64,000 nucleotides of DNA from Pegea sp. RAD2-039 (taxonomy: Eukaryota; Chordata; Thaliacea; Salpida; Salpidae), in NCBI GenBank assembly GCA_034620365.1, contig JAQGEQ010000270.1, positions 1,240,001 to 1,304,000 of the forward strand, in the 5' to 3' direction. The notes under the pieces were generated by a model. The model was not told where the DNA came from and did not search any database. It saw only the letters and a program-made list of their open reading frames with translations. The position numbers and the translations under genes were made by a program. Positions 19,916-64,000 of the stretch are shown here, one piece after another (positions within the stretch are counted from its first letter, which is position 1; each line of letters starts with the position of its first letter).

Positions 19916-22717
19916 ATGGCCAATGAATTCTCTGAAATGATGTTATGCTCTCCTAAAACAACTTCTGTTTATGGACTATTTGCAACTTATTTAAAAAGTG
20001 CCATCAAAGTTGACAATTATGTTCGTGGACATATTGATGACGAAAATGTTTTTCTACAATTTTTAGAAGAGTTTTCTTTTGTTTGTAAAACTAAATTTAC
20101 GACCAGAACCTCTTGGAAAAAAAATCATGAAACTAGAGCTAAGGGTAGATATGGGCGCGAAGGTAACATCTTTTTATAAAATAATAAAAAATAGAAATAA
20201 AATATATCAATTATCTGATTGAAATTTAATAAACTTTATTTCTCATTAATTTTTTTTTAGGTTCTATAATTTTATATAGTTATAATTGTTTGCTTTTTTT
20301 TTCTTTTACTTTTTGATTGTTGAAGCTTATTGAACTATATTTTGTTATTGTTCTTACTAATACTATAATTTTTTATCAAATAAATTTTCTTTTTCTTATT
20401 CATTTCTCAGTGTTTTATTATAAACTATTTAAGTACTTAGAAATATGATGAGCACTTTTCATAAAACTTTAATATATAAGTAAATATTTTAATGTATGAC
20501 CTTATAAACTTATTTAATGTTTTTTAAATTTGTAGAGAGGCTTTATTGGGAATACAAGTCTGGCAATTTAATGGTTCCTTTTACTGGTGTGCCATTTGTT
20601 GTTAGAAGTTGTTTAACTAAACATTGTCAATTTGGTCAACATTATTATAAGACTACAGGCCAGCGTTTTCAAGTTAGTTATTGTTTAACTTGGGTTTTCT
20701 AATATTGCTATATCTCAACTAACATTCTATTGTAAAACTAAATTTAAACAATTTTTTGAATTGGGTTAATAATTAATTCTTGCTGTCTTTTTATTTTATT
20801 TGAAACATAATTTTAAAGAATGAAACTAAAATTTTAGAGATTTATTTGATAATTATTTTAATCTTTTTGTCAATGCATTTATTCACCTTTAAGTAATTTC
20901 CTATTCAACCTTTTTTTTGTAATATTTTAATGATTTTGTGAGAATTTCTAGTTGAGATTATATTAAGAGTAAACTAGTTTGAGAAATCTAAAGGATTTAT
21001 ATAAATAGATGAAGGCATCTGTTATTATAAAGTGTAAACAACTTCTTTGTACTATGCCACATATGCACCTTGTTTAAAGCTTTTCACATCAATACAATGT
21101 TCTCTTAAATATTTTTCTGAGTAATTTTCCACTGTTTGGAAAATTTTCTCTTACTACATCAAAATCTATCACCTCTTAAAATTGTGTTAAATATATGATA
21201 AAATGTGATAACATTTTAAAAATATTTGCACTCAAATTGTTTTTTGTTTGCTGTAAGAGTTGTATAATTTGTCATCTGTGTTGAGTAAAAATGTTGATAA
21301 AGTTAAAGATTTTTCTCATCTAAAATCTTATTTTAATCTTTCCTGTTTTTTACAACTAATTCTTTTATAAGTTTAAGTTTTCATTTCCTGTCAATTATTA
21401 AATCTTAAATTTATTTTTTTAATTTTATTTCTTGGTTATTTCTGATATTTATTGGAGGTAAACACATTTTTAGGTAGATTTTTAAGTTGAAATTGTACAA
21501 ACAAAAAACTAGCATATGTTATTGACCATCTTATTCTGTTTAGATTTTATATATATAAAGTTCATAAATTGGCTTAAATGATTGTGTCTTGTATTTTTAA
21601 ATACATATTTATACAGTTTTAACAAAAATTAAATTTTGTTTTAATTAATTTATTTAATATCTCACTCCAAACAAAATCCAACTTCATTTTCACTTAAAAC
21701 AAGTTACAAATACTTAGATGCTATCTGCAACTAACCATTTGTTTGCAGAAACAGCTTGAAGCTTCACAAACTGATCCTTCCCTAGCACCTCCACAAACTA
21801 AAAAAAGACGAAACAAACTATCAAAGAAACGTAATTGCCCAGCAATTCTTCATATTCGAGAAATCGTCTTATTCCCCGACTTTGCTCTTCCACTCAATTC
21901 GTCAACGAAAGGTCATCGAACTCTGAAAGCTACTCGCCTTGGTGAGCTCCGGCAAGCTCTTAACTCAAATCAACAAGTCATAAAACCTGAAAATGGTCAA
22001 CTAGTTCATAGAGACCCTTTCAACCGCGTTCATCGATTCTTTCTCAACTTACCTCTTCCCGAAGCCCACCGATCTCACCTTGAACCATGCGGAGGCTTCG
22101 CTAGTAAGCTCTCCGATTCCACTGTAAATCAAATCGATGATTTAGTGAAACGTGGAATCTATAAAGCTTCACATGTGCACGCAGTTCTGAGGCGAAGTGT
22201 AGAACAAGAATTGATTTCTCGATATGGAGAAGAACCTAATGAAAGTAAACTTGAGAAGTTATGTCCTAGTGAAGATGTAATTGCTGAACATATTTACATC
22301 AACTCTATCACTTGTAAACCGACTGTAATCGTAGAAGAAGAAGAAGAAGAAACTGTGTATGTGAACTGTAATGAAAACCTCGTTGACTCCAACGTACCTA
22401 CCACAGAAGATGATATAAACACCAACGTTTTCCACCACCACCACCCATCTATATCACTTCTGCCAAAGGACACAAACAATTCTCAATTGTTAAACTTAGT
22501 TCCCAATACTTATAACAAATTCTCTTTTATGCTGAACAATTACACTGATGGTGATTTACTTGAAAGTGGCGATGTTCTGTACATGGATAAATTGAGCTCA
22601 TCTGACTCAGTGAAAACAATTGAATATCTTACAGATAGTTCTTCAACCACACTGGAAATTGCTGGTAATCAAGCCACTAGTGCAGACGATAAATTATATT
22701 TAAACTTGTGTTGTTAG
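19916..22717 (+). CDS. CARF: CARF / ALS2CR8-family transcription factor
   Basis: Exons 19916-20162, 20536-20672 and 21749-22717 join in phase to 450 aa. The order of motifs matches the ALS2CR8 (calcium-responsive transcription factor) domain: a region with FLEEFSFVCKTKFTTRTSWK; then PFTGVPFVVRSCLTKHCQFG, equivalent to the family's GIPFV...CQYGP; a basic KKRRNKLSKKRNCPAILHIR segment like the CPAR strand; the FFLNLPLPEAHRSH block with its conserved His; then a helical LSDSTVNQIDDLVKRGI segment like the family's LVSQGI. CARF is known in vertebrates as a nuclear DNA-binding activator responsive to calcium, for example at a BDNF promoter. The C-terminal ~140 residues are acidic and Ser/Asn-rich with a Glu run and a run of His, plausibly an activation region. 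Human CARF is longer at the N-terminus, so upstream exons may be missing. AATAAA lies near 22915. Confidence 0.85.
20902..21300 (+). repeat. Dispersed repeat, copy 2 (composite)
   Basis: The first 220 bp match the repeat at 16.76-17.0 kb. The stretch near 21.23-21.29 kb (ACTCAAATTG, then AGAGTTGTATAATTTGT) matches 51.16-51.21 kb, linking this copy to the family seen at 1.7-2.0, 51.0 and 54.7 kb. It lies in an intron of the CARF gene, in the sense orientation. Confidence 0.75.
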
Positions 22718-26811: not shown

Positions 26812-29194
26812 AAGATTTTGTCAGAAATTTGTTTGAGTTTTAATTTTTCAGCATTTAACAAATATCCAGTTTTGCTTTAAACATTTTATTGTTTTTAAGT
26901 TGTTGAAAAAGTTTAGAGCAAAACATGAAAGTTGTATCCACTTGTTTTTCTTTTAGGTACTTTCTGCTTGTTATTTGTTAATGAATTTGAATCGTTTTTG
27001 TGTTATTTAAAGCTTCATGTTCAATAATTTCTTAAGTCAAATAAATACACTTTTAAACGTAACTAATTTGTAAGAATCAGCAGCAAATTCAAACTTCTTT
27101 TTGTTAAATCGAAACACGCATGCGGATTTTAACATCAATTTCATCTTTTATAAATCAGAAAATATCTCATACTAAAAGATTGTGGTTCTCCTGTGATAAA
27201 AGTGGAAAAAATGAGGTTGCTTACATATAATCTGACATATTTTGTAAAAAATGTTTAAATCTAGCGATCGATGATTGAAAATTTAGATCATAGGAACAAA
27301 ATCAGCATTACAAGTAGCGAACTATCGGAAAAATTCAGTTAATTACCGGGTTACCTTAGTTTAACAAACCTTTTCTTATATCCCTAAACCTTATATATAG
27401 AGCTCTAGAACTATAAAAACACATATATTACCCATTAAAGAATATGCTATGGTATAGACATCTAAAATACGAATAAGAAAAAATACTTTTCAAATATGTA
27501 TTTCGAGTACAATTATTCAAAAATGTTCAAGTCCAGAAAACTTATAAATAGTAAAACTACCTGACCAATATTATTTTCTTCACTTTTTGGATTGATGAAA
27601 GTTTTTTGGGTCAATTTTTTTCATCAGACGAGAGCTTAATCACAATAAGATAAATCTTTAAAAATTCGAAAATGGATTTTTAAAGAAATATAAACAAAAT
27701 AAGTTGCAACAGATAAGTAGATTTTTAGATAATATCAGTTAACGAATATGGATTTTCAATTTTTGGACAATTATAGCGTTTTTCCGGCGTATTCTTCACG
27801 CTACGTAGCAAGCACTAGGAACATGCAGCTTATGTAAGACAAATTTTGCTTAATGTAATTATTCATATTATCATTATACAAGTAAACAAAAAATTTATTG
27901 TTACTCCTTAATTCAAAAAATCGTTAAAAAAAATAGCTTAGTTAAAAAATTTCGGCTATATAAGTTTTTGTTTTAATATTAAATGCATCTGATTTTGAAC
28001 ATAATTGTCAACGTATTAAGTTTTGTACTACGTAAAGATAAGAGCCACATTGTAAACTAAGTAAAAGGTTGTTGTAAAATCATCTGAGGTCTTCTGTTGT
28101 CAACAGTCTGCTGTTATGGCTTTTTTTTACAAATTTTGTAGCTAATTATTTTAATGCAATTTATTTTTCTAAAATATTTGATAGTAATGTAGTATACTGT
28201 AAACTTTTGTATTATGTGTGTTATTTTATATAATATTATATAAGTAACGTTTGTTGAATTTATTTTGTTTTACTTTTATTATAAAAGTAAAAGGCTTTTT
28301 ATAATATAACTTTTATAATTTCATTTGGTCTTTAGTTTATAATGAAGTTTTTCCATTAAAAATTTCCTTATTTTCATCATCATAACAGAAGATTATAGTA
28401 TTTTAAATCTTCAAACAAATATTTTAGATTTTTTGATTATCTTTATTAGTTAATAATAATTAAGTTTTAATTTATTTATATTAACTGATAAATAAGCTTA
28501 TCTACACATCTTGCTGTGGGTTAAACTTGTGACTATTAGAACTGATTTTTGAAATTCATCAAAACACATCTTAATTAATTTTTTTATACAAATGTAATTA
28601 AATAATTAATTTGATAGTAAATGAAGCTATAAATAAATTTATTTTTATTTTAGCTAATTAGATTAAAGTAAAAACAAAAATCCTTAATTTCCATTAAATT
28701 ATTAAATATTTATTAACTTATTTTATTAATTATTATTGTTTTAAACATAAATTTGTTTTAATATAAAATAATAGATATGAAATCTTATTTTATTGCATAT
28801 AATTGGTAGCTATAAGTTATAAATTATTTAAAAACTTCTATTAATAATTTTTATTGTATAATTTTAAAAGCTCATGGAAAATTATTTGTTTTTATTCTAT
28901 GTTATCATATTTAGGCTTGCTTTAACCTTAGAATAAGTACTACTAAATAAAATAGATTAATTATTTAAAGTATTAATTATTTAGTTCTTTTCTAAAGTAG
29001 TATAAACTTGCTGATAATGATGAATAGATCTTGAAAACTTGGATTAATTTGATAAGTCTCAAAGTTTGAATTCTTTTGAAAAGTTTTGCATTTTTAGTTG
29101 TAATAAATTTAAATATCATAATTTTATTATTTGATATTTGTTTCCTAATAAGGATTTTTTTTTCAAGATATAGAGGATAATATTAAAACAACTG
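26812..29194. other. Intergenic AT-rich region with an exon-like island
   Basis: Mostly AT-rich spacer. AATAAA near 27041 may end the scramblase transcript. On the minus strand at about 27.72-27.82 kb an acceptor GTTCCTAG is followed by an open segment containing LLRSVKNTPEKRYNCPKIEN and ending in a stop. It resembles a terminal exon, but no partner exon was found. Confidence 0.35.
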
Positions 29195-29917
29195 ATGTCA
29201 GAAATTCAAACAGAACTTCCTTCTTCAGTTCTTGGCACTCATAAATATTGGGAAGATTTTTACAAACAAGAAATTACTTCATCTGATAATGCTGAAATTG
29301 GTGATGGTTGGTTTGGTGAAAGTGCATCAAAACGTGTTATTAGTTGGCTCATCAAATCTAATTTAGTCCAAGCAAGCTCTAGTATCATAGATATAGGCTG
29401 TGGTGGAGGTGAACTGTTGATTGCTTTGCTAAAAAAAGATTTTACAAACCTAATTGGAATAGATTATAGTAAAAATGCAATAACAGTTGCTAAAACAAAT
29501 CTTGTCAAATCTGGTTTTGATCAAGTAAAAGTTTCACTTATGTGTTTAGATGTTATTAGTCAGAATATCTCTCATGTCACTACTAATAACGATAGTTTCA
29601 AATTAGAAGTTGTAAACTCTTTGGAAAGTAGTTTTGTACAAGCTACATTCAAAGTTTGCTTAGATAAAGGCACATATGATGCCATAAGTCTATGTCCAAA
29701 TAATTCAAACCAAAAAAGAAAGTGTTATCTTAAATTCCTTTTAAATATTTTACCAAAAGAAGGCATTTTCATAATTGTGTCATGTAATTGGACTGTTGAT
29801 GAATTGAAATTGCAATTTGATGCTTTGAAGTTTGTAGAAGAGATACAAGCTCCAAGCTTTTCTTTTGGTGGTAGATCTGGACAAACAGTATCTACTTGTG
29901 TTTTCATCAAATCCTGA
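29195..29917 (+). CDS. EEF1AKMT2: EEF1A lysine methyltransferase 2 (METTL10), intronless
   Basis: A single open frame encodes 240 aa. It reads like METTL10/EEF1AKMT2 throughout: SVLGTHKYWEDFY at the N-terminus, GDGWFGES, the SAM-binding motif DIGCGGG (66-72) followed by LIGIDYSKNAI, the post-motif CLDKGTYDAISLCPNN, KRKCYLKFL, VSCNWTVDEL, and the C-terminal signature SFSFGGRSGQ. The family is a class I SAM-dependent methyltransferase that methylates a lysine of elongation factor eEF1A in the cytosol. Length agrees with the human protein, which is slightly longer. Unlike the other confident, complete gene models here it has no intron, which might reflect retroposition or intron loss. A pyrimidine run ending TTTTTCAAG just upstream (about 29151-29167) could be a splice acceptor for a 5'UTR or trans-spliced leader. 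Confidence 0.95.
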   Translation: MSEIQTELPSSVLGTHKYWEDFYKQEITSSDNAEIGDGWFGESASKRVISWLIKSNLVQASSSIIDIGCGGGELLIALLKKDFTNLIGIDYSKNAITVAKTNLVKSGFDQVKVSLMCLDVISQNISHVTTNNDSFKLEVVNSLESSFVQATFKVCLDKGTYDAISLCPNNSNQKRKCYLKFLLNILPKEGIFIIVSCNWTVDELKLQFDALKFVEEIQAPSFSFGGRSGQTVSTCVFIKS

Positions 29918-30078
29918 TATTTTGATTATTTAATCATTAAACTGTTTCAGATTTCAGATGATTTATATGTTGATGATTTCATCAAATAATTGAGTACCTT
30001 ATTTTTTAAGTACATTTTCTATGTTTCAGCAACTAGTTCTGTTTAAGTTTTAGATTGAAGGTTTTAATTAGTGACAAA

Positions 30079-33000
30079 ATGTCAACTGCAACACCAACAA
30101 CAGGCGTGAAGCATGGTCGCGGCATTGTTAAGCAGGTGAGCTTAATATCATTATTAGAGATTGTAGCGTGATAAAAACTTTGAATTTTAAAACCAAAAAA
30201 GTAATTGACAATTATTTGAGTTGATTTATCTGAAGTTAGTGATCAATTTTAGGGTCGCACTTTGATACAAATGTATCTTTTATTCTCTTCAAATCATCAA
30301 AGCAAAATATTTTTAGGTTCTTTCAGGTGATTCAATTATCATCCGAGGACAACCTAAAGGAGGTCCCCCACCAGAAAAGTACATCAGTCTCTCAAACATC
30401 CAAGCACCAAGACTGGCCAGACGCGCGAACACCAACGTGGAAGGATCTGTTGATACAATCGATGAAGTCTGTTGTCTTCATCATCTTCATCTACATCATC
30501 TGATCTTCACATCTTTCAGCCCTTTGCTTGGCGATCAAGAGAGAATCTTCGTAAAAAGATCATTGGCAAGGAGATCTATTTCCAAGTTGACTACGCGCCT
30601 AGCAACGACCGTTGCTACGGAACTGTTTACCTGGGAACAAGTAAGTTGATCTTCATCTTTTAATCTTCATCTCAAAGACATCATGCAGACATGGAAGGCG
30701 AGAACTTGACAGAGACGCAAGTGAGTGAAGGTTTAGCTGAAGTGAGAAAAGTAAATGTTCGATCGGACAAGTGAGTCATCACGTGAGCTTCGATTCGCGA
30801 ACCGGATGTGATGATTTCATCTACAGCGCCGCTCATAATCGACTTATCGAGTTAGAGGACCAAGCCAAGACTGCTGAGAAGGGTAAATGGGCTCAACCTC
30901 TGCCTGCTGGGGCAGTTAGGGACATTACCTGGACTATCGACAACCCGAGGAACTTTGTGGACTCTTTTCGTGGTGAACCAATTCCAGGTAACCAACTGCT
31001 CATGACGTCATCATCGATTGCTAATGACGTCATCATTCAGCTGTGATTGAACAAGTACGCGATGGAAGTATGATGAGAGCTTCTTTGCTGTCTTCACATC
31101 ATCAAATCCAGTTCATCTTGAGGTCTGATTCTCTTTTTATCTCTTCTTTCAAATAAGAATCTTCTTAACAGCGGCATCAAGTGTCCGATGATCCGTAGAG
31201 ATCCCGAAGATGCAAAAAAGGAGATTTTTGAACCTTACGCTGCTGAAGCAAAATTCTTTGTCGAATCGCGACTCCTAGATCGAGACGTGAAGATCGTGCT
31301 TGAAGGAGTTTCGAATCAGAATCTTTTGCTAGCTACAGTCCTTCATCAAGTTTGTTCATCTTCAAAATCTTCTTCAAATCTTCATCTTCTTGATCTCAGA
31401 ATGGCAACATTACGGAGCTTCTTTTACGCGAAGGTTTCGCGCGTTGTGTTGATTGGAGCATCACTTCATATACACAAGGTCCCGAAAAGCTCCGTGCTCT
31501 CGAAAAGTAATTCCAACCTCCTCATCACTTCTCGATTTCTAACATCCTTCCTCAGACAAGCCAAGGAGCGCAAGGTCCGTATCTGGAAGGATTACGTCTC
31601 GAAGACCCCTGAAATCAATCCAGCAGAGAAGAACTTCACTGGAAAAGTCATTCAGATCTTATACGCGGACTCCATAGCTGTCAAAATGGCCAATGACGTC
31701 ATCAGGACAATTCATCTGTCCAGTGTCCGACCACCAAGGTCAGTTAAGGCTCACTACCTTTCATAAATTGACCAGTTGGTTTCAGGGCCGATGATTTGGT
31801 TTGTAAGGCGAGCAAACCGGTCAGTGAAGAAAACCGAGGCAAAGGACGAGCCCTGTACGATGTCCCCTATCTGTTTGAAGCTCGTGAGTTTCTACGTAAG
31901 AAGTTAATTGGTAAAAAGGTTCGAAAAACGCCATCACGTGACCATGTGACCACAACGTGACTATCTTGACCACTAGGTGCAAGTTAGTGTGGACTACATT
32001 AAACCAGCAAGCCCTGGAAATGAACAAGTCGGTGCCTACCCTGAACGCACATGTGCAACTATCACAAGTGGTGGCATGTAAGCGGTCTCCATCTCAACTA
32101 GTTTCCTAGCAACTAATCGATTGTCATAGAAACATCGCGGAAGCTATGGTCAGCAAGGGATTGGTCAAAGTAGTACGTCATCGTCAGGACGACGACTCGC
32201 GGTCAGCTCGTTATGATGACTTGTTATCAGCGGAACAGAGGTGACCCACATCCGACTGGTCATCAAATCTCTTAAAGATCTTTTATTTAGAGCGAGTAAA
32301 ACTGGAAAGGGTCTCTACTGCAAGAAGGAACCTCCAGTTCGCCACGTGACTGACGTCAATGGCGACAATTCGAAGCAATTGTTCCCATTTTTACAACGAT
32401 CTGGAAAGTAGGTTGTCACTTGTCAATCAGACGTGGTTTAAGGTGACATGTGGTCCACAGACTAGACGCAATAGTGGAGTATGTCTTCAGTGGATCACGT
32501 CTCAAGCTCTTCCTTCCACTTGAGTCTCGTCTCATTACTTTTCTGCTGGCTGGTACCTCTTACTAACCTTTTAAATCTTCAACTACTGACCACTAATTCG
32601 TGACCAGGTGTGGACTGTCCACGTGGGGCTAGAAATGGACCACAAGGGGTGATGGACGGTGACCCATTCTCGAAAGAAGCTCAAGCCTTCACCAAAGACT
32701 ACTGTATGCACCGAGACGTGAGTTGATTTCATTTCGATTTATTTATACACAAAACCGCTCGAAGCTTCGTGAAAAACACAATTGAGTAGATAAGTAGCAA
32801 AATGAAGGGGGTGGGCATGTAGGTGGAGGTTTGAAAGGAAGTTGTAGGCGTGTAGGTAGATACGTAGGTGGGTTCCATTCGTTCAAATCGTCGTTTCGTT
32901 GTTGGAATCGCGAAATACAATCGGAATCGCGACGCTCGTTTTCAGCTGGTCGTTGTAACTTAGTGGCAGCGTCATGTTGCCTAGACAACCATCAATTAGC

Positions 33001-36000
33001 GCTCTAAGTCATTTGAGGTTTACTTACTGTGATGATGTTTTGATGACGTAGCTGTGTTCGATCTCGATGATGCATGCTTTAGGTAACTAGGCAACGCGCG
33101 TTGATCAAAAAGTGTATTTGATGAACTTCTGTTATGATCTTTCCATAATTGTGGGTTGCTATAGAAACACGAATGCTCGAATCTCTCTTTATCATGAACG
33201 CTATATGACGCGTGTTGTAATCTCTGCTGCCGCCTAGCAGTAGAAACTTGTCGCGTGGCGTCGCCTCGTCCTGGCAGTTGTGCAAAGCGCTTTAGCGTCT
33301 CCAGCTCACTAAACGACGTTGCTATGGTGTTGAGCAATTGTTGTGACGACACTGAAGGAATTTCAGCGGCTGTCAAGGTAACCGGCAACTTGCGGGACGA
33401 TGTGGCCGGCCTGTCCAGGTCACTGTTCTGTCTGACCAAAGTATTGGCCCAGCCCAAATTGTTCTTTTGTTTCGTCACTGAATCTAATCTAATCGTGGTC
33501 GCCTCAAATGTCGGCTGCGTTGGGTTCCACCTATAAAGTGGTCACGTGATGTCATCGCTGCTAACATGACGTCATCACCTGTGTTGTTGCTGTGAGTTGG
33601 GCACTGGGGGAATTTTGCTGACGTCACTGAAGGGTTGCTTATTCATGACTATGACGTCATCGTTGTTGTTTAGTGGCGACTTTTTGTTGGCGGCAGTTTC
33701 GTTGTGAAGTCGATACAGCGCTTCTGCGAGTGACGTCATCACTTTAGTGTCATCACCGCGCGCGCACTCACCTGTCTTCTCGCTTCGATTCGAGCGATGA
33801 GGGTCGCTAATTTGTTCCTTGATATCTGAACTTTGTTGGTCGCTCCGTTGTCTGGCCCTTGCCTTGACACGATAATAGACCAACAAGAGGACCACAACTA
33901 GCAGTAACAGCGCGGTCATACAACCCACGATCGTCTTTGTCGTGTTCTGTAACGATATTATGACGTCATCAACGCGACTGATGACGATTTCGCTTTCTCG
34001 CTTTCATCAATTATTAATTATTTTGTGGCGACTTTTCGCGCGTTATTTTTGGCACTAAATCCGACTAAATCGAAATATTTCAAAATCAAAACCGCTAAGC
34101 TTCTTTTGTTTACACCCACCATCCGCCAATGACCTTTGACCTCACATCTAGCAAGTTTGATCTTATGATGACTCACCTCAGAATGGTTCAGAATATTTGA
34201 GTTGCTAATTGTGTTGTAGTCACTTGGTAACGTGTATCTGATGACCTGCTGCTTCGTTGTTGTCAATTTTTGCTGAAAAGAAATGAAATTAGCAACGAAA
34301 AGAAGATAATGAAATGTAAGATGGTCACCGGCACTTTTAAAGTGGTCAGTTGTTCGTAAGGACTAGAAGGAACCACGTCAGGTAGACCACAGCCCTTATC
34401 ATTGGTGGTTCTAAGTTCTATTGAGGACCATGTAATTCCTGCTAACAACTACAAGCTTAAAGATGGTCCATTTACTGACCAGATACCAACCACTTTTTTC
34501 CCCAGAACTTAAGGTCACTCGGTATGAACCATCGTCGAGACTATGTTCGTTGTCGCTTTTGTTGCCGATATCTATCTTTTGGCTACGATCTTTGTTCCTC
34601 TTCTTCTGACAAGGATCTGGATTAATGACTCCTGTTGAGATGAAAGATTGATGAATGATGAAGTAGACAAATGATGATGTCCTACCTGCGGATGACATCG
34701 AACCAACTGAGCAGCTTGTATTCAGCTCACTGTCAATTTCAGTTAGAAATTTTCCATTCAGATAATTTCCAGCAGAACATTTGGCGCAGATTTTATTTGC
34801 GGCCATTTTATCACATGTGTCATGAGCTAGCTTCATTTTGAGCATTCTACTTTTCATAAAAGACTTTTGAAGATGGATGAAATTGATGAAGATCAAATGA
34901 TCACCTGACAAATTCGAGTAAAGAGCAGTTACATAACCACTGATTACTCGTCAACATGACTTCCAGCAACACAGGATTGTAATCAAAGACATCTGCTGGT
35001 AGATTACTGATTCGATTTTCTCGTAAATCCAGCGTCTAAAAACCGAACAAGCATATGACGTCATCACTTCTCGATGTTTCCACTTACTTGCAGCTTGGTC
35101 AGTGACTGAAAGGCGTTTGAATCAATTGTTATCAGGTAGTTGTAACTGATGTTTAACCACTTCAAAGCTGGAACTCCTCTGAAAGCGTCTGCCTCGATGT
35201 TCTTCAACCTATTCCCACTTAAACTTAACTTCTGTAGTCCTCTTAGGCCGTTTGCTTTGCTGATGATCTTTGGGATTTCATAAAATTGACAATTTTCCAT
35301 TTTCAATTCCTGAAATAATTAAATCAGAAAGAGTTTGTTGAGTCTGTTCTTATGTTTTTAGCACAACATTTGATCAATATCTTCATTACATTAAGTCACT
35401 ACTAAGCAGTTAAGTGGCGCTATCTCTGTCATTTTGTGGTGTTTACTTACTAGAAGAAAGTAAAGAGCTTATGAGAGGATAGTATTCGAATAATCCGTTT
35501 ATATTTTCATTATTTCAATGTAACTTGTAGAAAGTGAAAACAACAGCAGCTAGTTACTTGGCGCCAACTTACATGCTGCAAGTTCACTTTATGTGAAATT
35601 TAATTTGATCTAACATCATATGGTTTATATATTTGTACCATCTGTTGATAATTTCTTCTTGACCAAAATTAATTATTTCGAAACGAGAAGTTATTTGATT
35701 AATCGCGGCATTATCTCATTAATCAAATAATTAAGATGAGGAAGGTACCGCAAGCCCAGCTAGTCCAATCATAGCTTTAGAAGACATTTTTGTAAGATGT
35801 CGAAGCTCGCTTAGGTCCAAACTTTTGAGGTTGGATAGTGGCAGGAAAGTATGGGCTTCGATCCAGTCAACAAGATTGGACCTCAAGGACAAAGTGACCA
35901 GGTTTTGATTGGCTTTATAAAACACTGGAATGGTTTTTAGCCGGTTCTCCGATAAGTCAAGATGCTGAAGACTCGGTGGAAATGGAGATACATAAGTCTG

Positions 36001-39000
36001 TAAGAAGATTTGTGGATGACAAAGATCAGGAAGATCTGATAACTCACAAAGACTTCTTCAATACCGCTCCCACTTAGATTCAGGACTTGCAACTTCTTGA
36101 GGTTATGAAGATTGTCTGTTTGGATATGGGTTATTGGGTTTCCACTAAGATCGATCTTACGAGTGTTAGGAGGATATGAAGTAGGAGCCTCTACCAGATT
36201 TCGATTCGCACATATCACCTGAAAGTAGAAAGAGATTTTGTTGTTGAAAGATTCCTTCAACTATTTTCTGATTACACCGTCGTGTGCTATCAAATACATA
36301 AATCGAACAAGCTTTTGTAGAAGCTTGTCTTCAACATCACTGCTCAAAACATCTTTTTATCTTCTTTCATCTTTATCTTATTCCCATCACAACCTTACAA
36401 TTTCTTCTATATACTTCATTAAAATTCTAGCAGATTATGTGATTACATGAAAGTAAGACTACTTTGAAGTTAGTCAGCCTGCCAAAATCTCTAAACAAAT
36501 CCTTTTTATTTGCAATCTTTCACAGCTTAAGCGTTACTTATGTCGTCACCACTAATTTATCGATTGAATTTTTCACCTTTATCATTTTGTGCAAATTCTC
36601 GAGTACCACAAGAAACTTACAGATAGCGTGAACTGCTACAAACTTAATTCACAATCAAATTAACAAATAAAAAAACAAATAAAAGCACCAACAACCTCAT
36701 CATTGCCACATCTGCAATGTCGTGGACATGTGTTGTCCGCAGCTGCCGCTGTCACCACATCTTCAATCTCACACCACCATAAGATCGTAGTGAACATGGC
36801 CAGCAAGCTCCTCATGTGTTTGTGTCCACCTCTGCATTTGAGGCCCACTATTGGTTCATTATTATGACAGCTTTGAAGTGTTTGTTGTGTGATATCGATG
36901 CTGACATCATCATTAAACCAGCTTTGTGTTAATTCGATTTGATCCAAGTTTGATATCTTCACTAAATCACTATCGTCACATTGCATCATATTTTGTCACT
37001 TTTTATATTTTGTAAATTAAATCAGTAGTTAGTTCACTAAACTCCTTCCTGTCAATAAAAAGAGCTTTTGCTCATCATCAAGACACTAATCATTTGATAC
37101 AAACAGCTGTTTAAATTCAACATCATCTAATTGTGTTAACTAAATATTTTGAGCAAATCAAAAATTGAAATCACAACAGCTGATTCGTTGAAACTGTCGT
37201 CAGCTTCATCACTACCTCCCAGCTCATCATCAAGCTACAAACAAACATATTTCTGTCACTTTTCGCCCTTTTACTACCAACCTCGCGCTTCAACTTTGTC
37301 GTTGAAACACGACTCAATATAGATAGCCGCTTATTGTTGGTGATGGTAGAAACTGGTTCTCCTGGGAACACCATCCAATCCCTAGCTTGTTTTTCCTTTC
37401 TTCTTTTTTCGCTGTAATTAAGTGGTAATGACGACGACATTTACCGCTTGCTTTCTCCAGACTTCTTTCTTTGCTTCTAATTTCAATTTTATGGAATCTG
37501 CAAAGACCCCCACAGAGATTATTTGTTTATTTTGGCTTCTTCAAATCAACTTGCATGAAATTTCATGTTCTCTTTTAAACGATTCATTTCTAATCATCAA
37601 TATTTTCATTATTTTATCTCAAATCTTTCTCTTTTATTTGTCATTGCCTTGCTTTATTTTCCTCTTTTTCTTTCTTTTCTGGTCACCAATTTTCATTGCG
37701 CAAAAAGAAAAAAAGGCCAAAATCTTCTTCTATTTGTATATTTTTTACTTCTAACTGTAATATGAGTGAAAAATTGAATATTTTTCCCAACCATCTCCAT
37801 TTTACTTTTCATTAATTTGATCTTAATCTTCAAAAAAATTTAATTAGAATAAAAATAGAAAAGTTTTAATGACATCTTTTGATTAAAACCTTTTTATACG
37901 AATTTTTCTTGAATCTAACTGCTTACAACCTTCTAAATTGTCGTTTCTAGTTCACTTCTAAAAAGGTTGATTGATGAGGTTTTTTACTACAACCAACTTT
38001 ATTTGATTTCCCGAAAGCTTCGTCTCAAATTGTTCAGTTAGAAGTTTAAGGTGGCAGCTAGAATTTTGATGAATGATAAATAAATTTGAAAATCAATATT
38101 TAAAGGAGAAGCAATTTTTAAGAAGTCTTTATCCATGCCTCTGTTTATTGGCAACAAATGATAATGAAAGGAAGACTTGTGGATGCGATAGTTCCCAATT
38201 TCACCTTTGTTTCTAATTCTTAAACTAATTTGGAAAAAAAAAGTTTGTAAACTGACTGCAGAAATTTTCGTATACAAACGTATGTTTCAGTCATTATTTA
38301 TTTATAAAGTTTCTAATTAGAAGAAGTTTGGAAATGATGATAATGAATCTGATTGAATCTTTCATATTTTAAAAATTTCAAATTTGATGTAAACAAAATA
38401 TTTGTAGAGAAAAGTTGGCTTTAACAAATAATTAGATTGGTAATTGTATCCATCAGTTGTTTTCAATTATATCATTTTGAAATTAGGAGATTTTAGTCAT
38501 TTTAAGATGTAAGACTGTCAGAAGCTACAAGCAGTTAAAACCACCCAAATAACTCCATTCAGTTATTACAAATATTTGAAGAATTTACAATTTTCAACTG
38601 ACTTATCCACGATATGAAAGATCTGAAAAGACGTTTTTATCGGCATCTTCAACCTGATTGAAAAGCAATTGATGCAAGAAAATTGGCAAGTTGTGATATT
38701 TGATGAAAATTCTTTAATCTACTTCACTGTCTTTCACTATCAGCTTTGTGGCTTTATAAATAAAATCCTAGCAACTCCTGTGAGCTGTGAGTGAGTTGAT
38801 TGACTGACAAGTTTATATTGGAATCGATTTTCTTGTTGACCAAATCTCTTGCGTTCACTTTCGTCCGAAATTTTTCATCTTTTTTTTCATCTTTAACAAA
38901 CAATTGACAAATTGTCAACCTAAAATATCCATTAAATCGCTTGTTAATTTGTAAATATTTTTTGTGTAGTGATAAATCTTTTTATTTATTTTTTATGTCT

Positions 39001-40808
39001 TTAAATCCAAATCGACTGATGGATCTTCATCATGTGTTAGTTTATTCGCATCTTTCCGTCTACAGTCTTTAAAACTTTGAAGTAGTTGATGTAAATGATT
39101 GAGTTAATATCGATTATTTAAAAGCTGAAGAACTATTTATAAAACAAAAAAAATGCATTTATAAGAAACTTCTAACAAGCAAAATATTGTAACAATATTA
39201 ACACTTGACCCCAAAACACACGAGGGCAGAGTGGTTCTTTTTAAAGAAAGAATAAGAAGCTGATGTTTGTATCTATCTACATCATCTCACTCCTTTTCGT
39301 GTCTACATCACATCAACTATTGAAATTCTTCCTTTTGTTATCGAATTATAAATAACATTTGCTGTCTACAGGTTACAGTTAAGGTGGAATCTCTCGGAAA
39401 AGCAGGAAACTTTATCGGGTGGGTTTTTATTGATGGGGCAAATCTGTCGGAGATGCTGTTAGATCGGGGACTTTCCCGTCTTCACTTCTCAGCTGAAAAG
39501 AGCTGCTACTTCAACGAGCTTGCAGCTGCTGAAAATCGAGCAAAAAAGACACAAATTAACGTAAGTTTAATCAGCTGCTACCTTTCATAAAAACCTGATG
39601 TTTCAATGACGATGAAACTGCTGTTGCTACTCACTTGATATACAAACACGACGCTACTACTGGTGGCGCTATTAGAACATCATTGTCATAAAAGTTTCAT
39701 CAAAATCAAATTTCGAACAGTTGTGGGAAAATTACGAGGAACCCAAAGAAAAAGTGATTGTTGAAGAACCTTTGGAACGAAAAGCGAACTTCCGCAATGT
39801 CTTTATCACTGAGATCACCTCAGAACTGCATTTCTACTGTCAATATGCTGAGAACGGAAACAAACTGCAGTTGCTAATGGACCAGGTTTTTATTGATTTA
39901 ATCTTCTAAAAGAATCGAAATTTTGATGTCAACTTTTGCAATGTGACATCTCGTGTTGTTCTAAATGATTGTATCTTTTAGATGAGAGCATCTTTAAAAG
40001 CTGATCCTCCTCTTGCCGGAGGATACAAAGCGAAGAGAGGAGACTTCTGCGTCGCTAAATTCACTGAAGATGAGATGTGGTATCGGGCTCGAGTTGAAAA
40101 GATCGAAGGCGAGATGATTCGCGTTCAATACATCGATTTCGGGAATGTGAGTTTCAAAGATCTTAAATCAATCTTCTGATGAAATGATCTTCTGCAGAAA
40201 GAGACTTTATCAGCATCTCGACTTGCTGCCTTGCCTACTGAGTTCAACACTCACGCCTTGCTGCCTCAAGCTCATCAGTTTGCTCTTGCACTCATCAAAG
40301 TCCCTGAAGATGTAAGTTTCATCTAATGATATATCACGTGACCAGGAAGCTTTTTGATTGGTTTGTTAATTTGAGTTTTTATTTTTCAGCAAGAATCTGT
40401 GTACGACGCTTACGAAGCTCTCTGTAGACTATTGGGATCACAACAGTTTGTCCTTAACACAGAATACAAGGACACATATGATCACGTGACCTTAGTCAAT
40501 AAGGTTCGCTTTTAACAAATCACCAAAAATGGCTTTTTAACAAATTGGCGCAGGAAACAGAGCAAGATGTTGGAAAGTATCTGATCTCCGAAGGTCTTTG
40601 TACTGTCGCTAAACGAAATGAGAAACGTTTGTCAAAATTGTTGTCTGATTACTACAAAGAACAAGATAAGGCAAAGAAGGCTCATGTGAGTAGAAGGAAG
40701 ATTACAAACAGATCTCTAACTTCTACTTGTTGTTGATAGTTGAATCTGTGGAGGTACGGAGACATTAGTGCTGATGACGCTTCTGAGTTTGGATACATGA
40801 AAAGTTAA
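30079..40808 (+). CDS. SND1: Staphylococcal nuclease domain protein 1 (Tudor-SN, p100)
   Basis: Exons: 30079-30135, 30317-30466, 30520-30640, 30689-30770, 30827-30987, 31041-31122, 31172-31349, 31400-31506, 31556-31738, 31786-31918, 31977-32077, 32130-32240, 32291-32407, 32461-32552, 32608-32717, 39372-39560, 39721-39885, 39982-40146, 40198-40311, 40390-40503, 40554-40685, 40740-40808. All chain in phase to 910 aa, equal to human SND1. Four N-terminal SN-like OB-fold repeats (for example [56 protein letters not shown]) are followed by a Tudor domain around residues 728-790 ([25 protein letters not shown]) split into a fifth SN repeat, ending [13 protein letters not shown]. The protein acts in RNA granules, small-RNA pathways, splicing and transcriptional co-activation. 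The intron after residue 595 is 6.65 kb and holds an antisense gene. Donors are sometimes weak (GTCTGT, GTTTTT). Confidence 0.97.
32883..36815 (-). CDS. Leucine-rich-repeat single-pass transmembrane protein, nested in the SND1 intron
   Basis: Minus-strand exons chain in phase to about 781 aa: 36815-36696, 36218-36048, 35997-35749, 35309-35088, 35035-34905, 34849-34686, 34631-34480, 34448-34329, 34272-34177, 33946-33772, 33723-33579, 33530-33028, 32980-32883. A signal-like start [15 protein letters not shown] is followed by an LRR N-cap [10 protein letters not shown]...C, about six LRRs (for example [19 protein letters not shown]), an LRR C-cap [12 protein letters not shown]...C, a linker with no clear Ig domain, a transmembrane helix [17 protein letters not shown] (about 484-500) and a ~280-residue Ser/Thr/Gln-rich cytoplasmic tail. 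The last exon reads out to NNETTI-stop, a class I PDZ-type terminus. The architecture recalls LRRC4/AMIGO/LRRTM-type cell-surface adhesion or signalling receptors. The start is uncertain: the frame is open upstream to Met at 36989. An alternative end is a stop at 33020 if the last intron is retained. Confidence 0.75.
37441..39371. other. Remainder of the large SND1 intron
   Basis: This is the 3' part of the 6.65-kb SND1 intron, upstream of the nested antisense gene. It probably holds that gene's promoter and 5' untranslated exons. It is rich in pyrimidine runs on the plus strand (37.42-37.75 kb). No coding exon was recognised. Confidence 0.4.
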
Positions 40809-41666
40809 TTTGATGATAAAGTAGCAGCAAATGAGGACTTAATCCAACGGATTTATCCTCAAGTCAATGTTTTAATTAAATCAAACCTTTCATCTCTTTA
40901 ATCTTCTTCTCATCCCTTCCTTAACTTGATCTTTAGCAGGAAATCTTTCCCTGTTAACTTCTCCTAAAACTTTTGTTTCAAATTGAAGCTTTGTTTAATC
41001 TTCAACTTCTTACCAAACATTCAGTTTGTTGCTTGTATTCAAGAAATATCAAATTAGTTTTATTTGTTAATTAGTTTGTCGTGTTCGATCAATTTATTTA
41101 ACTATTTCTTAAATCTGTTGGGGTAATATTTAATCAAAATGCTTTTGGTGATGATAAACGCTTCTTTATGATACTTGTGGCAGTTGGTTTATTAAAAGCA
41201 GTTATTCAACTTTTCAACAATCAAACAACTTCTAACAGTAAGCAGTATAGATCTTTAAATTATTAAAACTCGTTCAACATTTCTAATAATTTTTTTTCTG
41301 TTTATTTTGCTTTGATTAAGATGAAAACTATTTTATTAATTGATTAGGTCATCAACATTCTTATCTTAATTATTTTAAAGAATCGTTTAAATACTACATC
41401 TTCCTTTTTGATGTGGGCTTCACAACAGCTTTTAATTTCTTTCTGTTTTATTTTGAAAACAAAAAAAGCAACATCTGTAAATTGAAATAAATAAAAATGT
41501 TTATTGTCAAATCTACAAACTTTCCAACATTTTCAAATGATTAACAAAATATTATCTGAATAAAAAAATTCAAATATGCTGCTATAATATTACAGAGATG
41601 AAATCTGTCTAATCAAATCGTCCATATGTCCACTGAAGATTTATATTCAGGGTGATTGAAGACCAT
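40809..41666 (+). other. SND1 3' flank
   Basis: This probably contains the SND1 3'UTR. AATAAATAAAA at about 41486-41496 is the first strong polyadenylation-like signal. Otherwise it is AT-rich, with no coding signal. Confidence 0.4.
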
Positions 41667-59718: not shown

Positions 59719-60080
59719 CATTTGATATGGTACCGAAAACGGCCTTATTGTAAGTCAGGATGGGAACTATGGAGATCCAGTTGTTGCCCAAGGTAGGTAG
59801 TGGAACAAACGGACTGATGCAGCTACGCCCGGCTGGTGTCGCAGGAGCTGCCAGAACGACACTAAGTACAGTGACTAACTGCCTACAAGGCTCCAACTCC
59901 GGCTTTGAATTCGGATTTTTGTGTCTCCTAGAAGTGTCATCATTAACTAAACTAACAAGACCTGGAGGTTTTTATGAACTTTGCCTTGCTGCAAATATGT
60001 GTCCACCTGGGTCCTTCCAACCCGGAACCTTCCGCGTGTTAGGCGGGCGTGATAACCACTACACTACGGAGACACACTAA
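59719..60080 (-). mobile_element. tRNA-Val-derived SINE, copy 2, with target-site duplication
   Basis: Read on the minus strand, the tRNA-Val-like head spans about 60077-60000: CCGTAGTGTAGTGGTTATCA (box A), the AAC anticodon in CCGCCTAACACGCGG, and box B GGGTTGGAAGG with one change from consensus. The body then runs GCAAGGCAAAGTTCATAAAA and, after a segment absent from the shorter copy at 53.1 kb, reaches CATCCTGACTTACAATAAGG and CCGTTTTCGGTACC. TAATGATT occurs at 59711-59718 and again at 60081-60088, directly flanking the element, a good target-site duplication and a sign of retroposition. Confidence 0.88.
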
Positions 60081-62252: not shown

Positions 62253-64000
62253 CTACGTGGGATTGCTAGTGACGTCATCGATAACTACGTCATCAAGAGT
62301 GCCTTTCTTTTCACTGACATCAACAGAAATGACTTCATCATGTTTAGCATGATTGTGTATGATGTCATCTTGTATGACAGCAGCTTCTATGATGTCATCA
62401 TCTGCGAGGTTGTTTTGTGTGACGTCATCATTTGTAACGTTGTTGAGTGAGACGCCATTCTGGGTAATATCGTCTTGTATATATTCATCAGTTGTGACAT
62501 CATTATTAGTGACGTCATCATGTGCTTCTTCATCATTATTAATGACGTCATCATGTGCTACTTCATCATTATTAGTGACGTCATCATGTGCTACTTCATC
62601 ATCTATGACGTCATCATGTGCTTCTTCATCATCTATGACGTCATCATGTGCTACTTCATCATTTATGACGTCATCATGTGCTACTTCATCATCTATGACG
62701 TCATCATGTACTACTTTATCATCTATGACGTCATCATGTGCTTCTCCATCATCTATGACGTTATCATGTGCTACTTCATCATTTATGACGTCATCATGTG
62801 CTACTTCATGACTAGTTACGTCACTTTCACTGATATTTACAGAATCATCGAGAGACGAATCATCAAAAGCCATTTTATCCGCATTGAATCTCATATCTTT
62901 GAGAAGATCGATTTCTTCAAACTTTAGTTTCAGTTCATCTTCTTCTTCTGTTGCATTTTCATATTCTGTCTTTAAATAATCTTCGTTTACATCATCATTG
63001 TAATCTTCTTCAGGAGAATCTTCTGATCTGTTGGATGTTGAATCCACATCCAGGGACTTGATATACTCCGAAACAAGTTGATAACACAAACGATATTGTT
63101 TCTGCAGTGGACAAGTGGACTAATTATTTGGTCCAGTTGTCAGTGAAAGCCTACCATATTCTTGACCACATGAGGACGACTGTCCCGTAAATCTTTAACA
63201 CTTCGGCTGACATCGACCCGGCCCTCATTGTCCAGGTAGCCCAAAGAGTTCAGCATGGAACAGAAGATACCTGACCTCCCACATCCATCACTAGAGGATC
63301 AAAGATGAAGATCAGGATCAAGTTAAAGATTTCCATCACCTGCAGTGAACAAGAACTCGAGATTTCTGCTGATTGATCTTCAGATCTTCCAGTTCTTTCA
63401 AGATCAGTTGACGAAGATGAAGAAGATCTTGAAATCCTTTTGGTGAATCAATCTGATCTTCATCCTCCCATCCGAGATATTGGATGTGGATGACTGAATG
63501 AGGCGGATGCTAGAAGAAGATTATGAATAAGAGATCAATAGGAAGCGTTTCTATGACAACTCACATCTTTGCTAAGAAGATCAAAAGGAGATAAATGAAC
63601 TCTCAAATACCGGATGAGGATGTTCGGATAATCTTCATCAACTTCAATCTTGTCTTCGTGAACTTCCAACTTCTTGTCATAAACCAGAGGCTGGTCCGGA
63701 CTTGAAGGCCAGTAGTTGAAGTCCAGGTCCTAGACTATCTACTTGATGATCATTCATCAGATAAAGATCACTTACTGGATGTTTAGGGTCAAGTGGATTC
63801 AACATGATGATGATTCGGACATCGTTGTCGGCAATCATCCTCCAAAAATCTTCAGTTGTGTCTTTCATCGGAGATTGTGCCAAGATCAAAGACATCTTCT
63901 GATTATAAGTCTGAAAAAAAAATTCGATAATGACGTAATCCGCGTACCAGCTTCGATTCAGACCTGGACAGGGGACGCATTGTAGTAGACAGGGACTTGC
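62253..64000 (-). CDS. PTPR: Receptor-type protein tyrosine phosphatase, C-terminal PTP domain and acidic repeat tail (5'-partial)
   Basis: Minus-strand exons chain in phase: 64000-63964 (cut by the window edge), 63910-63776, 63729-63565, 63509-63340, 63290-63155, 63101-62253. The order is that of a PTP domain: VPVYYNASPVQTYNQKMSLI, AQSPMKDTTEDFWRMI, HIQYLGWEDED (WPD-loop position), RVLVHCSDGCGRSGIFCS (phosphate-binding loop), then RVDVSRSVKDLRDSRPHVV and YRLCYQLVSEYI. The loop sequence and its position before the tail suggest the membrane-distal D2 domain of a two-domain receptor phosphatase. The CX5R core (CSDGCGR) is intact and the aspartate of the WPD loop is present, although proline is glutamate. 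After the domain come about 270 residues of very acidic tail with ten copies of a 10-11-residue repeat (EVAHDDVIDD) and further decayed copies. The receptor part lies beyond the right edge. Confidence 0.85.
62511..62816 (-). repeat. 30-bp coding minisatellite with TGACGTCA in nearly every unit
   Basis: Ten units of 30 bp (33 bp in three of them) follow the plus-strand consensus TGACGTCATCATGTGCTACT, then TCATCATCTA. They encode the minus-strand repeat EVAHDDVIDD. Length changes are multiples of three. Both strands stay open in several frames through the array, so plus-strand frames here are by-products. The flanks (62.25-62.51 kb) hold further degenerate GACGTCATC-like units. Confidence 0.92.

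Follow-up and report, generated by a model that had tools for sequence, protein, structure and literature searches.

The SND1 gene and its long intron

The window, that is, the whole 64,000-nucleotide stretch of DNA analysed, contains an SND1 (Tudor-SN) gene on the plus strand and, antisense to it and wholly inside one of its introns, an LRR transmembrane gene resembling LRRC4. SND1 is a housekeeping gene. Spliced alignment of the human protein (910 aa) to positions 29950–41100 gives one collinear gene of 22 exons covering human residues about 21–910, and exon-level tblastn covers residues 27–908. The collinearity with human is nearly end to end and includes the SN repeats and Tudor/SN5, as judged from the alignment, tblastn and a PDB match. 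The 5′ part (30079..32717, plus strand; alignment and tblastn) comprises the ATG at 30079, read by eye, and coding exons 1–15, and its last base, 32717, lies at the residue matching human 593. The 3′ part (39372..40808, plus strand; alignment and the match to 3bdl) comprises coding exons 16–22 with the rest of SN4, Tudor/SN5 and the stop codon TAA, the last codon and the stop being read by eye.

Between the two parts the spliced alignment places a phase 0 intron of 6,654 bp (32718..39371, plus strand; GTGAGT...CTACAG), with exon 15 ending ...CMHRD and exon 16 beginning VTVKVES..., so that the original prediction of SND1 exons continuing in phase from 32717 to 39372 across 6.65 kb is borne out. 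It is the sole long intron of the gene, the other 20 measuring 48–181 bp. It falls after the equivalent of human SND1 residue 593, which is the position of human SND1 intron 16, and we take human LRRC4 to be located in that same intron 16. In human SND1, exon 16 runs to aa 593 (PMC3382171). Which intron of human SND1 contains LRRC4 is not stated in the retrieved excerpts of the literature searched, which bound its location loosely; those of PMC6297716 assign only SND1-IT1 (SND1 intron 16) and MIR593 (intron 17) to introns.

The continuity of the host gene bears on the question, raised with the original prediction, of whether the two parts of SND1 are separate or brought together by an assembly join, and answers it in part. 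The halves abut at human residues 593/594 with neither gap nor overlap, and the peptide joined over 32717/39372 matches human SND1 (3bdl) across the junction in the PDB search (E = 8e-28). An exon-level search of the 105.7 Mb assembly with the SND1 model (E ≤ 0.001) reported 19 places, every one of them at this locus; the halves are therefore not two paralogues, and SND1 appears to be single-copy. Searching the genome with the Pfam SNase family gave no hit, which we attribute to the short SND1 exons. A join of two loci between 36.8 and 39.4 kb might be suspected from the G+C content, which is 0.298 in the 3′ part of the host intron against 0.444 in the inner exons, but AT-rich DNA is common in the window, the window has no runs of N, and only 165 bp separate the end of the inner gene from the SND1 splice donor. 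Together with the exact meeting of the SND1 halves at a single locus, this makes such an artefact extremely improbable.

The nested gene and its product

The inner gene, in a hand-made gene model, has 12 coding exons encoding 740 aa and occupies 32883..36815 on the minus strand. Model and alignment thus uphold the original prediction that one SND1 intron contains a complete antisense LRR gene, except that 13 exons were counted there, and of its span, 32883..36989, the lower end stands while the start moves to 36815. An open, in-frame ATG lies upstream near 36989 and would explain the longer span. Human LRRC4B gives a spliced score of 400 on the minus strand and 49 on the plus strand, with 20 shuffled queries scoring 48–96.

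All 12 exons are read on the minus strand of the model. The first, exon A (36696..36815), has the start codon, the hydrophobic N-terminus and the first part of the LRRNT, and its donor, GTTGTT, is weak. Exon B (36048..36218) carries LRRNT and the first LRRs, and further LRRs follow in exons C (35749..35997; with the PDB search aligning its LDLSELRHL to LDLGELKRL of LRRC4B) and D (35088..35309). Exon E (34905..35035) contains the last LRR and the start of the LRRCT, which continues in exon F (34686..34846, model and PDB search; acceptor uncertain by a few bases) with a C-X2-C (CAKC) as in the LRRC4s. The linker at the position of the LRRC4 Ig domain is encoded by exon G (34480..34631), in which Pfam found no Ig, and the extracellular stalk by exon H (34177..34272). 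The transmembrane segment, TTKTIVGC..., lies in exon I (33772..33946), the cytoplasmic tail in exons J (33579..33723) and K (33028..33530), and the C-terminus, ...SNNETTI, with the stop codon TGA in exon L (32883..32980). Two motifs flank the gene on the same strand: 3′ of the stop, an AATAAA polyadenylation-like signal (32738..32743) 20 bp from the SND1 donor and, upstream, a TATAAA (37002..37007) that is a weak hint only.

LRRC4 (NGL-2), LRRC4B and LRRC4C are postsynaptic adhesion proteins of one family, whose members carry one IgC2 domain after the LRRCT and end, in NGL, with ETQI; the family is neurally expressed and binds netrin-G or LAR-type phosphatases. The parts of the inner protein follow the order seen in these proteins: a hydrophobic N-terminus leads into the LRRNT, and then come nine LRRs (a count made by eye from the gene model), an LRRCT with C-X2-C, a transmembrane segment and a C-terminal PDZ-type motif, here at the end (NETTI) of the cytoplasmic tail; the LRRCT is followed by a linker. 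The terminal ETTI fits a class I PDZ motif and could bind a PDZ domain. The transmembrane segment matches a segment of LRRC4C, in a comparison confined to this LRR family, and none of 2000 shuffles was as good. The LRRNT is weak (Pfam E = 0.12), the LRRCT family is not listed at E up to 1, and no Ig domain was found by Pfam at E up to 1 or by eye. In the model, the introns around the Ig position are 54, 207 and 230 bp, lengths that leave no room for a complete Ig exon. The cap cysteines, C-X3-C-X-C-X6-C in the LRRNT and C-X-C-X26-C-X2-C in the LRRCT, are the same as in LRRC4/NGL, with one extra cysteine, but differ in spacing from the C-X3-C-X-C-X8-C and P-X2-C-X-C-X19-C-X2-C given for that family (PMC4349622). 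Identity to the family is about 35%, no Ig is recognisable, and the tail was compared at its end only.

Relationship to LRRC4 and LINGO

Four of the five best matches of the inner gene in a PDB search (177,635 distinct sequences) are LRRC4-family chains, with E values between 5e-46 and 1e-37: LRRC4B is first and second (4.8e-46 and 8e-46), LRRC4 fourth (8.3e-42) and LRRC4C fifth (1.2e-37), each as one stretch spanning LRRNT, LRRs and LRRCT. The third match, ALS (6.4e-42), is in three pieces, and LINGO1 follows at 1.4e-24. Pairwise blastp gives 168 bits (35% identity) for LRRC4B, 150 for LRRC4, 140 for LRRC4C and 81 for LINGO1, and the spliced score is higher for LRRC4B (400) than for LINGO1 (226). 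LINGO proteins have a related LRR layout, but LINGO1 exceeds the inner protein in its number of LRRs and contains an Ig, and on these three comparisons, rather than on a tree, we set aside the identification of the inner gene as a LINGO.

Other comparisons place the gene less firmly. When human LRRC4 was searched exon by exon, the window locus ranked 23rd of 32 places, below other LRR genes. The LRRCT alone is too short to match LRRC4 significantly (E = 0.17), with a Toll-like receptor first at 0.0086. Two trees of the LRR domain contain no supported branches; in the free tree, the inner gene stands beside the LINGO pair with support of 43/67, and topology tests reject neither LRRC4 with the window gene (p = 0.27 and 0.21) nor LINGO with it (p = 0.22). 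As neither tree places the gene, orthology rests on the pairwise scores, features and position.

The spliced comparison covered 20 regions selected from 27 and 32 matches, together with the window. The genome also has a LINGO-like gene, L063, which prefers LINGO1 (414) to the LRRC4s (354–375), the inner gene showing the opposite preference. After splicing, L063 exceeds the inner gene for LRRC4 (361 against 353) and LRRC4C (375 against 339), the inner gene leading only for LRRC4B (400 against 354). A partial model of L063, fitted to LRRC4C, has LRRC4C as its first PDB match (4.4e-42). We nevertheless rejected L063 as a rival LRRC4, since the PDB matches of a fuller hand-made model are ALS first, then LRRTM, LRRC15 and LINGO1, with LRRC4 at 5.5e-32, and its match to LINGO1 (1.7e-43) is a single stretch over the LRRs and Ig.

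Origin and persistence of the nested pair

Human SND1 and LRRC4 lie at 7q32, and the coding sequence of vertebrate LRRC4 is uninterrupted. The two are described as a nested pair on different strands in human, in mouse, and in coelacanth and/or zebrafish (PMC3933685); human, mouse and rat all have LRRC4 inside SND1 in antisense orientation (PMC6297716). The locus described here has the same host, the opposite strand and an inner gene within one intron between coding exons; it differs in its 12 inner coding exons, in having no Ig that could be found, in a host intron that is the only long one, and in being compact, at 10.7 kb compared with about 440 kb in vertebrates (PMC6297716). Among the matches listed for open-licence PMC full text, the pair was not found reported outside vertebrates. 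The original prediction read the nesting as local and missed this parallel; the arrangement looks inherited.

We infer common descent of the two pairs, the tunicate identity of the genome and a promoter of the inner gene's own. We think it likely that the locus is the tunicate form of the SND1/LRRC4 pair, older than the tunicate–vertebrate split and kept by structural locking. On this account, an LRRC4-like adhesion gene would already have lain antisense in this SND1 intron in the common ancestor. SND1 transcription would run through the inner gene, the intron then being spliced out, and the inner gene would be transcribed from a promoter lying upstream of it, where the intron is AT-rich (about 37.0–39.4 kb), its transcript stopping just short of the SND1 donor. 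Rearrangement could not separate the two, because any breakpoint falling between them would disrupt SND1, and the pairing could end only if the inner gene were lost or duplicated. Hox-like genes are spread over at least five contigs in this genome, which indicates that ordinary neighbourhoods have been broken while the SND1 pair is intact. The homeobox genes suggest a tunicate, for which dispersed Hox genes, homeodomain introns, a Hox12-like/Hox13-like pair and a small genome would be expected; the homeodomains were classified by eye against consensus sequences. Searches for COX1 and for chitin-binding families found nothing, the control for the latter being silent too, and no rRNA or mitochondrial gene was obtained.

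Nesting could instead be convergent, if the SND1 intron that LRRC4 entered in vertebrates was entered independently in the tunicate line by some other LRR transmembrane gene, such as LINGO, LRRN or another of the LRR-Ig relatives. Of 19 nested structures described as lost in frog or chicken, 12 involve LRR genes (PMC3933685), and at a loose cut-off LRRC4, LINGO and LRRN form one cluster (PMC2235866); the unplaced position of the inner gene in both trees and the failure of Pfam to find an Ig domain point the same way. Convergence, however, requires agreement in host, in strand and in the intron occupied (one of 21), as well as an inner gene that by chance has LRRC4 as its nearest PDB family, and we consider it quite improbable. 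A comparable case is that of the LRRTM genes in vertebrate alpha-catenin introns, also antisense neuronal LRR transmembrane genes in one large host intron, but with another host and another LRR family (PMC3933685); in the excerpts of that paper, LRRTM was not found in tunicates or lancelets, and the vertebrate nested LRR genes are ascribed to retroposition. For LRRC4, a retroposed origin is weakened by the multi-exon structure of the inner gene. The LRRC4 cluster of Dolan et al. (2007, PMC2235866) has, in the part retrieved, mouse paralogues only, with fly and worm genes absent.

Antisense regulation between the inner gene and SND1, suggested with the original prediction as transcriptional interference or coordinated regulation, is possible alongside common descent. 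Nesting might have been kept by function, if antisense transcription or formation of the inner 3′ end at the SND1 donor made the genes antagonistic; such antagonism, by transcriptional interference or splice masking, is compatible with common descent. With the AATAAA 20 bp away, the predicted cleavage site would lie on or near the donor, and in mouse fat a decrease in Snd1 accompanies an increase in Lrrc4 (PMC9789969). Opposite changes in a single mouse model are not necessarily causal, though, and conservation is already explained by structural locking, so we judge retention by function to be unlikely. Also doubtful, and somewhat more so, is a chordate-old antisense switch, in which the 3′ end of an LRRC4-like gene on the SND1 donor would let strong neuronal transcription of the inner gene lower full-length SND1 there; the usefulness of this antagonism would have kept the intron occupied in both lines, and vertebrate LRRC4 would have shed its introns without moving, instead of arising as a retrocopy.

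If the descent proposed here is correct, both the LRRC4 adhesion family and its nesting in SND1 would be older than the vertebrates, and SND1/LRRC4 would count as a nested pair of great age. The pair makes it testable whether nesting persists because it is irreversible or through mutual regulation of the two genes.

The host gene and its long intron

SND1 (Tudor-SN) is a single plus-strand gene of 22 exons, collinear with human residues about 21–910 according to exon matches and to spliced alignment of human SND1 with the window. The last base of exon 15 is 32717 and the first of exon 16 is 39372; the phase 0 intron between them has the ends GTGAGT and CTACAG and is 6,654 bp long, against 48–181 bp for the other 20. 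The peptide across the exon 15/16 junction matches human SND1 in PDB entry 3bdl at 8e-28, and together with the intron phase and the collinear alignment this bears out the original prediction that the exons continue in phase across the gap. No N runs occur anywhere in the window. In the 105.7 Mb assembly, each of the 19 places that an exon-level search (E up to 0.001) gave for the SND1 model falls at this locus.

A methyltransferase-domain gene (Methyltransf_31, 7e-15; region 29174–30079) lies just upstream: some 160 bp separate its end from the SND1 start codon, and an acceptor-like TTTCAG, ending at 30029, falls in this gap. Operons with trans-splicing occur in tunicates, and these neighbours possibly form one. 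Per 2 kb, G+C is 42–47% across 30001–34000, where the 5' part of SND1 lies together with the 3' portion of the inner gene; it is 38–44% at 6–10 kb and 21–33% in most other steps.

The nested gene

As predicted, an LRR transmembrane gene lies wholly within this one intron on the opposite strand (36815–32883, minus). Thirteen exons had been proposed; our hand model has 12 coding exons and 740 residues, and the thirteenth was not found. The earlier end coordinate coincides with an in-frame ATG upstream, near 36989. In this model, which has weak points at the donor of exon A (start codon) and the acceptor of exon F (LRRCT), a hydrophobic N-terminus is followed by LRRNT, nine LRRs (counted by eye), LRRCT, linker, transmembrane segment and a cytoplasmic tail ending in NETTI. 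Pfam finds LRR_8 at 5e-37 and LRRNT at E 0.12 only, with no match to LRRCT or Ig families at E up to 1. The linker exon G (34631–34480, minus) contains DDGSYRV, which resembles the Ig F strand (DxGxYxC) minus its cysteine and may be an Ig remnant. As a control for chance, LRRC4B scores 400 on the minus strand, 49 on the plus strand and 48–96 for 20 shuffled queries. Among 27 places in the genome the best five are the gene's own exons and the next scores 43.8 bits, with no close second copy reported.

The palindrome TGACGTCA has 24 copies in the window (31003–35063 and 62270–62793 noted), 10 of them inside the SND1/LRRC4-like stretch and 11 within or beside a 30-bp tandem array. An open frame of 288 residues (62256–63119, minus) is partly a 30-bp tandem repeat of about 10 copies and matches nothing in Pfam at E up to 0.1. 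A second open frame, of 339 residues (21698–22714), carries an ALS2CR8 domain (1.3e-13), and a tRNA (59998–60073, minus; 33.8 bits) is the sole Rfam match in the window.

Family affinity

Among 177,635 distinct PDB sequences the best matches of the inner gene are LRRC4B (4.8e-46 and 8e-46), ALS (6.4e-42), LRRC4 (8.3e-42) and LRRC4C (1.2e-37), with LINGO1 at 1.4e-24; the LRRC4 alignments run continuously from LRRNT through LRRCT whereas that of ALS is split in three pieces. The order in blastp is LRRC4B (168 bits, 35%), LRRC4 (150), LRRC4C (140) and LINGO1 (81). In a comparison that covered LRRC4C among the LRR families, the transmembrane segment scores 93 with an LRRC4C segment, against at most 64 in 2000 shuffles. 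A LINGO-like gene elsewhere in the genome, L063, has the reverse preference (LINGO1 414, LRRC4s 354–375).

Other results point away from LRRC4. Searched exon by exon with human LRRC4, the window locus ranks 23rd of 32 places. When the window and 20 genomic regions are compared by spliced alignment, the window comes first for LRRC4B (400 v 354), and L063 does so for LRRC4 (361 v 353) and LRRC4C (375 v 339). A partial L063 model has LRRC4C as its top PDB match, while a fuller one has ALS, with LINGO1 well above LRRC4. The free LRR tree places the inner gene beside the LINGO pair (support 43/67), and tree tests reject neither grouping, with LRRC4 or with LINGO, giving no resolved placement. The LRRCT searched alone has no significant LRRC4 match and, unlike the LRRC4 family, the inner gene is without a recognisable Ig domain. 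Given the missing Ig, the LRRCT result, the trees, the L063 scores and the exon-wise ranking, we name the gene LRRC4-like, short of a proven NGL (LRRC4 family) member.

L063 itself (contig C15, 227000–233000) has a longer LRR row than LRRC4, an Ig-like region, a transmembrane segment and several introns; LINGO coding sequences are generally uninterrupted in vertebrates. An exon with a protein tyrosine phosphatase domain (PF00102, 2.4e-12) lies at the window edge (63680–64000). LAR-type phosphatase relatives are LRRC4B ligands. In a published clustering, only mouse paralogues fell into the LRRC4 cluster, which merges with LINGO and LRRN once the cut-off is loosened (Dolan et al., PMC2235866).

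Comparison with vertebrates

The Pegea pair has the same host, strand and nearest inner-gene family as the vertebrate one, and would share its intron position too, human LRRC4 presumably lying in SND1 intron 16. SND1/LRRC4 is a published different-strand nested pair (PMC3933685). Its antisense arrangement is common to human, mouse and rat, and the same source assigns SND1-IT1 to intron 16 and MIR593 to intron 17 (PMC6297716). On chromosome 7, LRRC4 is placed at around 127.67 Mb (PMC10319783, PMC8451157). In mouse fat Lrrc4 is up while Snd1 is down (PMC9789969). The SND1-BRAF fusion, joined at exon 16, retains SND1 residues 1–593 (PMC3382171); in VLQRE|VEVEVES the E before the bar is residue 593, and the Pegea host intron falls at exactly that point.

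Origin and persistence

With host, strand, nearest inner-gene family and, presumably, intron position all shared, common descent is the simplest account of the pair. That the inner gene has so many introns speaks against an ancestral nested gene that was simply a vertebrate retrocopy; their gain within tunicates is a possible alternative.

The nesting would need no function to persist, because a rearrangement separating the genes cuts SND1. Elsewhere in this genome ordinary gene neighbourhoods do come apart, as its scattered Hox genes indicate. Homeodomains gave 71 matches, from which 30 loci were inspected, along with 20 stretches, some overlapping, viewed through a motif filter. By homeodomain consensus we assign Hox1-like (contig C371), Hox2-like (C265), Hox3-like and Hox4-like (C18), Hox10-like (C283) and Hox12-like and Hox13-like genes (C235, 22 kb apart), which suggests a chordate with a broken cluster and, at an assembly size of 105.7 Mb, probably a tunicate. 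Cdx-like and Pdx-like genes were also among the inspected loci, and several of these genes have an intron within the homeodomain.

In the 165 bp that separate the inner-gene stop from the SND1 donor, a single AATAAA/ATTAAA was found, 20 bp from the donor, so that inner-gene cleavage is expected on or near it, which leaves room for a possible antagonism between the two genes.

Among the papers listed in searches of the open-licence literature, none was seen to describe the pair in an animal other than a vertebrate. The nested SND1/LRRC4 arrangement is already known in vertebrates; what would be new here is its counterpart in an apparent tunicate, with an LRRC4-like nested gene that is multi-exon and without a recognisable Ig domain.
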